From Natronococcus sp. CG52 (GTDB lineage Archaea > Halobacteriota > Halobacteria > Halobacteriales > Natrialbaceae), in contig NZ_CP099391.1 of NCBI RefSeq assembly GCF_023913515.1, forward strand, positions 2,604,001 through 2,668,000: 64,000 bases of DNA, written 5' to 3'. Numbering within the stretch: the stretch's first letter is position 1; each line of letters begins with the position of its first letter. This document shows positions 44,766 to 46,195 of this stretch, piece after piece. The notes under the pieces are model-generated. The model saw only the letters and a program-made list of their open reading frames with translations. It had not been told where the DNA came from and made no database searches. The translations under genes and the position numbers were made by a program.

Positions 44766-46043
44766 TTACTCCGGGTCCGGCGCGGGCAGCGACCGGTGTC
44801 GGCGCGGTGGGACGAGGTAGTTCGCCCGCCGGCGGACCCGCATATACTGGAGAATGCCGTTGTGTAGCCGGGAGTCGATCGCGCCGTCGGTGAGATCGCC
44901 GCCCGTCATCGCCTCTCGAGTGGCGACGAAGTCGGCGATCGATCGCTGGTGGGAGACGAAGTGCACGCCGGCCTGACCGTCGTCGGTCGAGTTGACGTCC
45001 CGACGGAGGATGATCGGATCGCCGTCCTCGCGGGCGCGGCCGGCCTTCTGGGCGTGTCCGACCAGTCCGTTTCGGGCGTCCGTTTCGGCGTTTTCGATGC
45101 AGTCCTCGACGCCGCTCGAGTCGCCGAGATTGTGGCCGGCGTCCTCGACGCGATTCTCGTCTGCGTGGGCCGGACAGAACAGTTTGGCGACGCGCTGGTC
45201 GTGGGTTTCCTGCTCGTACCACTGCTGCAGGTTGAGTTCGATCTTCGAGAGGTGGGTCGTCGTTCCGCCCTCGAAGGGGCCCTCGACGATCGTCACGCGG
45301 TCCTCGCCGGCCTGGTTGCGCTCGAAGCCGGACTTGAACCCCATAAAGAACGGGGCGTCGTCGGGAACCGGATCGGTGTCCGGGATGCCGCGGATTTCTG
45401 CCTGGTTCTCCGCCGGGAGCCCCTCGCCGACGAATCCGGTTCGACGGTCGGTTACCTCGAGCACCCCCTCGAGAGTTCCCTCGACGGAGACGTCGTTGAT
45501 CTCCTCGATTCCGCCGGTGAGCGCTTCCTCGACGCTCAGGACGACGTGGCCGTGATCGCTGGCGAGGTGGAGCAGAGCGTCGTGGGCGTCGAGTTCCGGC
45601 TCTTCGATCGGGGCGAGCGGTTCGGGCGCCGGCAGATCGACGTCGTCCGAGAGGGAGTCGTCGAAGCGGTCGAAGTAGGCGGGTCCGTAGCCGACGGTGA
45701 AGACGAGACCGTCGTTGCCGCGCCCGTAGGCTCGCTCGAGCGTCGTGAATGCGTCCTCGAGGCGCTCGCGCTCGGCGTCGTCGGGACCGTCGCCGACGTA
45801 CTCGAGGCCGAGCAGGAGGTGGTGTTCAGGCGGCCTGACGTTGCCGCGGTCGTCCCGGTCGAGGAACTCGTTCCAGGCGTGCTGTCGGTCGGGCAACGCT
45901 CCGGGCTCGAGGTCCGCCTGCGGGACGTCTTCCTCCTCTTCGCGAGTGGTGCAGGCGGCCAGCGCACCCGCACCGCCGACGGCGACGGCACTCCGAACGA
46001 ACGCTCGACGCGAGAGACCGCGGTCCGGACCGGACATACTCAT
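44766..46043 (-). CDS. Divergent Dyp-type peroxidase-like Tat lipoprotein
   Basis: The 425-residue protein has a twin-arginine motif (SRRAFVRS, Arg12-Arg13) and lipobox ALAAC (Cys31), so it should be a Tat-exported surface lipoprotein. The C-terminal domain matches Dyp-type heme peroxidases: the proximal His330 in GHAQKAGR, Arg347/348 in IILRRDVNS, and HFVSHQRSIADF. The GxxDG motif reads GFKSG (residues 235-239), with Ser238 where the catalytic Asp should be. Heme binding seems possible, but the peroxidase mechanism must be altered or lost. EfeB-like iron or heme handling is an alternative. Confidence 0.7.
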   Translation of the reverse strand: MSMSGPDRGLSRRAFVRSAVAVGGAGALAACTTREEEEDVPQADLEPGALPDRQHAWNEFLDRDDRGNVRPPEHHLLLGLEYVGDGPDDAERERLEDAFTTLERAYGRGNDGLVFTVGYGPAYFDRFDDSLSDDVDLPAPEPLAPIEEPELDAHDALLHLASDHGHVVLSVEEALTGGIEEINDVSVEGTLEGVLEVTDRRTGFVGEGLPAENQAEIRGIPDTDPVPDDAPFFMGFKSGFERNQAGEDRVTIVEGPFEGGTTTHLSKIELNLQQWYEQETHDQRVAKLFCPAHADENRVEDAGHNLGDSSGVEDCIENAETDARNGLVGHAQKAGRAREDGDPIILRRDVNSTDDGQAGVHFVSHQRSIADFVATREAMTGGDLTDGAIDSRLHNGILQYMRVRRRANYLVPPRRHRSLPAPDPE

Positions 46044-46195
46044 TCCTGAGCCGTGCGCCCTCAAGGAAATTCCGGTGAGACGAGGACTCGAGAAGACGCG
46101 AGAACAGTGCTCGAGTGCCGAGTCGAACGAGCCGACTACGGGGAGCGCTCTCCCAACCGATACAGTCATCCCGTCGTAAAACGATTCGTGCTAGC

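Follow-up and report, generated by a model that had tools for sequence, protein, structure and literature searches.

Pockets of DyP-type peroxidases are built almost exclusively from His, Asp, and Arg, with Glu taking the place of Asp in a few cases (available sections of PMC7611857). A gene in the window, which is the whole 64,000-nucleotide stretch of Natronococcus sp. CG52 DNA analyzed in this study, encodes a DyP-like lipoprotein in which the Asp is missing, and this raises the question of what such a protein can do at the cell surface. The initial annotation of the gene had suggested either a heme protein with a changed reaction or a role in heme or iron handling. Here we consider whether the protein has a DyP fold, whether the loss of Asp is confined to this copy, and which reaction, partner, and metal its family may be associated with.

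Gene structure and predicted export

The coordinates of the gene and its features are given in Table 1. The second ATG of the frame, at 46037, is an alternative start and may be the true one. Codon-position GC differs between the frame (0.76/0.44/0.85) and its mechanical extension to 46169 (0.57/0.60/0.64), which makes the shorter start likelier; a chance or artefactual frame is ruled out by codon-position GC together with homologues at 37%–88% identity. A polyketide-cyclase-type (SRPBCC) gene on the plus strand adjoins the 5' end of the gene, and a short FemAB-like piece and an epimerase gene lie 3' of it on the minus strand. The Tat signal and lipobox on which a cell-surface location had been based are both present, and their conservation was assessed in an alignment of 89 rows (88 family frames plus the query, with six fragments dropped and 85 rows distinct). 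These motifs support the prediction that the window protein is a surface lipoprotein exported via Tat.

Table 1. Positions of the DUF7405 gene and its predicted functional sites in the window
Feature	Position	Strand	Basis
ACCGGAATTTCCTT, half of the family promoter element	46063..46076	(-)	39 nt before second ATG
DUF7405 (predicted DyP-fold) Tat lipoprotein gene, 425 aa	44766..46043	(-)	open frame, stop at 44766
Twin-arginine codons, residues 12-13, predicted Tat signal	46005..46010	(-)	RR in 89/89 aligned rows
Predicted lipobox Cys31 (LAAC)	45951..45953	(-)	Cys in 87/89 aligned rows
GFKSG (residues 235-239), counterpart of GxxDG; Ser238 at the missing Asp	45327..45341	(-)	hhalign
His330 (VGHAQK), counterpart of the proximal heme ligand	45054..45056	(-)	160/160 rows
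Arg347 (ILRRD, 347-348), counterpart of the distal Arg	45003..45005	(-)	160/160 rows
Asp349, Arg+2, where DypB/DtpB have pocket Asn246/245	44997..44999	(-)	placed by alignment
Phe362, aligned with Phe of YfeX and EfeB	44958..44960	(-)	160/160 rows

Family membership and predicted fold

The window protein is a full-length member of the Pfam family DUF7405 (PF24152), matching positions 1–347 of the 347 in the model at 526.8 bits (cut-off 27), and no difference was found between the protein and the family model. Pfam Dyp_perox_C also matches it (28.5 bits, cut-off 20). An AlphaFold2 prediction of the single chain, based on an alignment of 64 family members, reached a mean pLDDT of 93.5 and a pTM of 0.93. 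The 50 PDB matches listed by Foldseek for this model were all DyP-type proteins, and VIA-align gave Z scores of about 27 (26–28) over about 285–315 aligned residues for both type A and type B DyPs, among them EfeB. A member of the second subtype of the family (Ala at position 238 and His at position 349, see below) was modeled with the same DyP fold (pLDDT 94.9), and the models of both subtypes aligned over about 285–320 residues at Z 26–28 and an rmsd of 2.7–3.6 Å. The Pfam scores and the structure match agree with the original description of a Dyp-like protein, and according to its model the DUF7405 window protein is a complete DyP fold, a dimeric alpha+beta barrel. Searching solved structures with the single window sequence returned chance matches only, and the family profile gave weak DyP matches, the best at E 0.02.

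The Pfam entry DUF7405 assigns no function, a full-text search of the literature library consulted returned no paper with this name, and no study of the family was present among the matches listed there for DyP and haloarchaea or for a wider query. Public databases already carry the annotation 'Dyp-type peroxidase' or 'Dyp-type peroxidase domain-containing' for 12 of 36 plasmid-borne relatives.

DUF7405 was detected in 261 of 292 sampled genomes of the class, and the window's genome holds three copies. When 196 genomes were sampled across the phylum, all 26 with a DUF7405 match belonged to the window's order. The classical DyP C-domain, searched with the C-terminal Pfam model alone at E≤1e-9, was found in none of the 292 class genomes, and the controls E. 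coli, B. subtilis, and C. glutamicum were positive; the window protein matches this model at 8e-7, so the threshold separates it from classical DyPs. Spread via phages or plasmids was rejected, as no phage match was found and 35 of the 36 plasmid records with a relative are haloarchaeal by name. The remaining record is from Streptomyces, and its relative reads GFHSG and has no Tat signal at the annotated start. At locus L194 (G114:C1:1553155-1569507), broken DUF7405 pieces lie in a row at 1559155-1563507, with an exact copy of the promoter element described below at 1558260, and these pieces look like decayed copies.

Residues of the predicted heme pocket

An hhalign comparison in which the family profile was set against YfeX and EfeB of E. 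coli placed Ser238 opposite D143/D235, His330 opposite H215/H329, and Arg347 opposite R232/R347. Taken alone, these matches are weak (probability 18% for YfeX and 1% for EfeB), but the Dyp_perox_C score and the structure match agree with them. GFKSG does occupy the place of GxxDG, as first annotated, and the retention of the proximal His and of the Arg region was borne out by the lack of any variation at His330, Arg347, Arg348, and Phe362 across 160 aligned rows. These rows were obtained from 189 matches, of which 159 remained once fragments shorter than 280 aa and duplicates had been removed, and the window protein was added, so that it enters the alignment twice (also as row L001). The three named heme sites all fall among the 12 invariant columns of 385, which would be expected with p of about 2e-5 if columns were random. 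We take the Phe of YfeX and EfeB that aligns with Phe362 to be the distal-pocket Phe.

At position 238, the 160 rows carry Ser (90), Ala (60), Asn (3), Asp (3), Thr (2), or Val (2). Close homologues were thus not found to retain the distal Asp, which is absent in 157 of the 160 aligned DUF7405 rows, and as judged from this alignment its loss is a trait of nearly the whole family and not just of the window copy. The possibility that Ser is fixed in haloarchaeal homologues, raised in the initial annotation, did not hold, and Ser as a fixed signature residue is ruled out by the frequency of Ala.

Position 349, two residues after the distal Arg, is occupied by Asp in 94 rows, His in 60, Ser in 3, and Thr in 3. 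PDB titles give the residue at this place as Asn245 in DtpB and Asn246 in DypB, and the Asn of DtpB juts into the distal pocket, where it replaces a water molecule that, in type A enzymes, is bonded to the Asp (available text of PMC8463360). A tree was built by a quick method from 131 of the 160 rows, after thinning at 88% identity and with the pocket columns left out; in it, the 44 rows with His349 make up a single derived clade (SH-aLRT 100) nested among the Ser/Asp forms. The Ala/His change is one event on this tree, a pattern that suggests rather than proves that Asp or His at 349 compensates for the Asp lost at 238. Exceptions to the pairing are Ala238 with Asp349 in three rows and Ser238 with His349 in one; since His349 arose once, a strict coupling of Ser/Asp versus Ala/His is unsupported as a statistical claim.

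Asp238 (GFND) and Asp349 occur together in three long-form members of 681–740 aa. The long DUF7405 forms, at L180:5593-7812 (-), L182:4864-7062 (+), and L076:1192-3234 (+), contain an insertion ahead of the distal Arg and additional sequence that no Pfam model matches. A divergent clade has Ser or Thr at position 349 (L074, L075, L084, L086, L202, and L203), and a CRTAC1 family gene lies next to DUF7405 in the annotated plasmid records L202 and L203.

Consequences of Asp loss and comparison with known DyPs

Whether Asp or Arg drives the formation of Compound I in DyPs is disputed (PMC8463360 and PMC6153280, in the parts available). In DtpB, the Asp variant resembles wild type, making Asp dispensable for Compound I, and it is the Arg that matters; DtpAa tolerates the loss of Asp as well, with a variant comparable to wild type (PMC8463360). 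In KpDyP, Asp is reported to be essential to fast, pH-independent Compound I formation (PMC6153280), the D171N variant of the B. adusta enzyme forms no Compound I, and in ElDyP Arg is less important than Asp (available sections of PMC8197335). As these published results are mixed, a missing Asp does not by itself show a changed reaction. The window protein most likely binds heme b via His330.

Type B DyPs (TyrA, DypB, DtpB, and YfeX) share with DUF7405 the fold (Z 26–28), the proximal His, the distal Arg, and the Phe. DUF7405 differs from them in having Ser or Ala for the Asp of GxxDG, in being a predicted Tat lipoprotein, and in carrying Asp or His at Arg+2 where type B enzymes have Asn or Ser. 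With type A EfeB of the EfeUOB system, DUF7405 shares the LRR at the distal Arg, the fold, and a metal-system context, whereas it lacks the Asp and has a predicted lipid anchor and a P19-like partner. Tat export, predicted for DUF7405, is also found in type A DyPs (PMC7611857). Set against a functional DyP-type peroxidase, DUF7405 has the predicted fold, the His, and the Arg, but the Asp of GxxDG in only 3 of 160 rows.

A P19-like partner

In 70 of 121 DUF7405 loci, a lipoprotein that combines an Iron_transport (P19) domain, above the PF10634 cut-off, with a DUF7350 domain is encoded no more than about 6 kb away, and in 63 of these 70 its gene is on the same strand. The loci represent 116 distinct proteins, mostly high-scoring members, with a few loci shortened by contig ends; the partner genes were found with a profile of seven partners, and adjacency after clustering at 85% identity was seen in 57 of 99 loci. 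Both DUF7405 and DUF7350 occur in 253 of the 292 genomes, DUF7405 only in 8, DUF7350 only in 1, and neither in 30 (Fisher p 2e-32, ignoring relatedness and with the genomes sorted by eye). In five of the eight partnerless genomes, the best DUF7405 match (E 5e-115 to 3e-35) is a divergent or partial member.

A profile of 32 partners matches FtrA (E 9e-6) with the GpHYGdN region aligned, and more weakly (E 0.003–0.06) FtrA-P19, the 34 kDa membrane antigen, and a periplasmic Fe2+ transport protein. Met137, Met142, His99, and His145 are invariant among 82 partners. The partner belongs to the FtrA/P19 family, which also includes FetP and Tp34, and differs by the added DUF7350 domain and by the lack of an FTR1-type permease in the class genomes sampled.

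The window copy and ten Natrinema/Natronococcus-type loci (L004-L011, L015, and L025) have no partner within 6 kb, and among the three DUF7405 copies of the window's genome only C1:1500581 adjoins one. Other neighbors in the 121 loci include NirK (6), cytochrome oxidase subunit I (5), DUF7282 (14), an HTH gene (34), and DUF7471 (32), which are too patchy to decide the metal. The gene order P19/DUF7350 - DUF7282 - DUF7405 - rhodanese lipoprotein - diadenylate cyclase is present at L105, L120, and L160.

A shared promoter element

Words enriched upstream of DUF7405 genes defined the element TTCGA-N7-ACC[A/G][G/C]AA-N4-CTT. At the loci, loose forms of the element precede 38 of 102 DUF7405 and 24 of 65 partner frames, and at most 5 of 971 others. 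The exact form TTCGAN7ACCASAAN4CTT was found at 86 sites in 72 of 292 genomes, and 75 of these sites lead directly into DUF7405 or its partner; the reversed pattern, used as a control, gave 0 sites in the 292 genomes. The distance from ACC to the start codon is 38–41 bases in 50 of 53 cases for DUF7405 and in 23 of 23 for the partner. Three other exact sites precede NosL in one genus (one Pfam-tested, the others near-identical), and single sites precede genes for a halocyanin, COX15-CtaA, an AhpC/TSA peroxiredoxin, a rhodanese lipoprotein, and a His-rich membrane protein; of the remaining three exact sites, two belong to membrane proteins of no assigned type and one lies at an unclear place. 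When one mismatch was allowed, 20 genomes yielded 57 sites, 31 of them exact, and the control yielded 4. Among the 26 sites with a mismatch, 8 lead into DUF7405 or the partner, 13 into nothing convincing, and 5 into other genes at the right distance, namely NosL, SCO1-SenC, a DsbA-like thioredoxin, and two unknown membrane proteins.

Several of the genes that share the element are copper-site and oxidase assembly genes. Sco-, NosL-, and halocyanin-type genes share it in single or few genomes, and no conserved DUF7405-Sco operon was seen. This sharing parallels the Streptomyces sco-ecuc-dtpA operon. In S. lividans, the operon of dtpA also holds sco, ecuc, and the gene of a Cu transporter, and DtpA has been suggested to oxidize Cu(I) bound to Sco (available text of PMC4736821). 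DtpA, like DUF7405 by prediction, is a Tat-exported DyP, and it is tied to Sco and extracytoplasmic copper proteins (PMC4736821); it differs in having the distal Asp (PMC8463360) and in published partners that are not P19-like.

At the window gene, the TTCGA half upstream of the conserved half listed in Table 1 is absent, and the window's genome contains no exact element. Scans for sigma-70-type promoters and terminators, which are unsuited to archaea, gave nothing above shuffles. The HTH genes found in 34 of 121 DUF7405 loci are of the HTH_HVO_0163 type and are candidate regulators of the element.

Proposed function and alternative explanations

We propose, with moderate confidence, that DUF7405 is a surface heme redox protein for metal handling, and that the metal is probably copper. 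The folded protein would be exported by Tat and held at the cell surface by its lipid, where His330 would hold heme b and peroxide would react with Arg347 as the essential distal residue. Ser or Ala would stand in for the GxxDG acid, and a new acid/base group, Asp349 (His in the derived clade), would lie two residues after Arg347. The electron donor would most likely be a metal ion held by the P19-like lipoprotein, and the pair, presumably in contact, would oxidize Cu(I) or Fe(II) at the cell surface; copper would then serve the copper sites of oxidase, nitrite reductase, or nitrous-oxide reductase. This system-level picture comes from the relatives, as the window copy lacks a neighboring partner and retains just half of the element, and it may extend to the window copy. 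Of the role in heme or iron handling suggested initially, the link to metal handling stands, while the partner and the promoter element are no less indicative of copper than of iron. We slightly prefer copper, a reading limited by the fact that few copper genes share the element and most sites belong to DUF7405 or the partner itself.

Iron uptake, in which DUF7405 would act like EfeB as a ferroxidase or deferrochelatase and hand iron on to its P19-like partner, is possible and in our estimate somewhat unlikely. The fold does match EfeB (6jbn, 3o72, and 2y4e), the partner scores above the Iron_transport cut-off and its profile matches FtrA/P19-type proteins, and iron is further favored by a ferritin-like gene that recurs beside DUF7405 in Natrinema-type loci (11 of 121) and by the annotation 'iron transporter' on two partners in Haloarcula marismortui. 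However, none of 145 class genomes, the window's own included, yielded FTR1, the permease family of the Efe and Ftr systems, and an EfeUOB-type explanation with FTR1 was rejected on this basis. The named genes that share the element likewise include several for copper or oxidase assembly and no known iron permease, and the deferrochelatase activity of DyPs is itself disputed (PMC7611857 and PMC8197335, in the parts available).

A non-catalytic heme carrier or sensor, which would bind heme and have lost peroxide chemistry along with the Asp, appears improbable. Although such a role would fit the near-universal absence of Asp in the family and the damage that its loss causes in KpDyP and the B. 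adusta enzyme (PMC6153280, PMC8197335), Arg347 and Phe362 show no more variation than the ligand His330, and Compound I in DtpB does not need Asp (PMC8463360). It is more improbable still that the protein no longer binds heme and uses its barrel for protein contacts or metal: the invariance of the heme-site residues argues against this, even if binding of heme or heme derivatives is known for only 4 of 23 structural families of the superfamily (available sections of PMC7611857).

Returning to the surface heme redox protein, we can extend the proposal to a rather doubtful form, in which Haloarchaea, lacking a classical DyP, moved the acid/base group to Arg+2 and built a copper-feeding, two-protein surface metal oxidase with a dedicated promoter element. 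It would be part of this same doubtful extension that Asp came first and His followed in one clade, which would make the distal pair Arg/His, as in plant-type peroxidases.

A nearly class-wide natural family without the Asp, and with Asp or His nearby, offers a ready-made test of the dispute over Asp and Arg in DyPs. With these results, a near-core haloarchaeal family of unknown function gains a concrete partner (DUF7350/P19) and a promoter element, and knowledge of both makes its function testable in Haloferax volcanii, which has both the DUF7405 and DUF7350 families.
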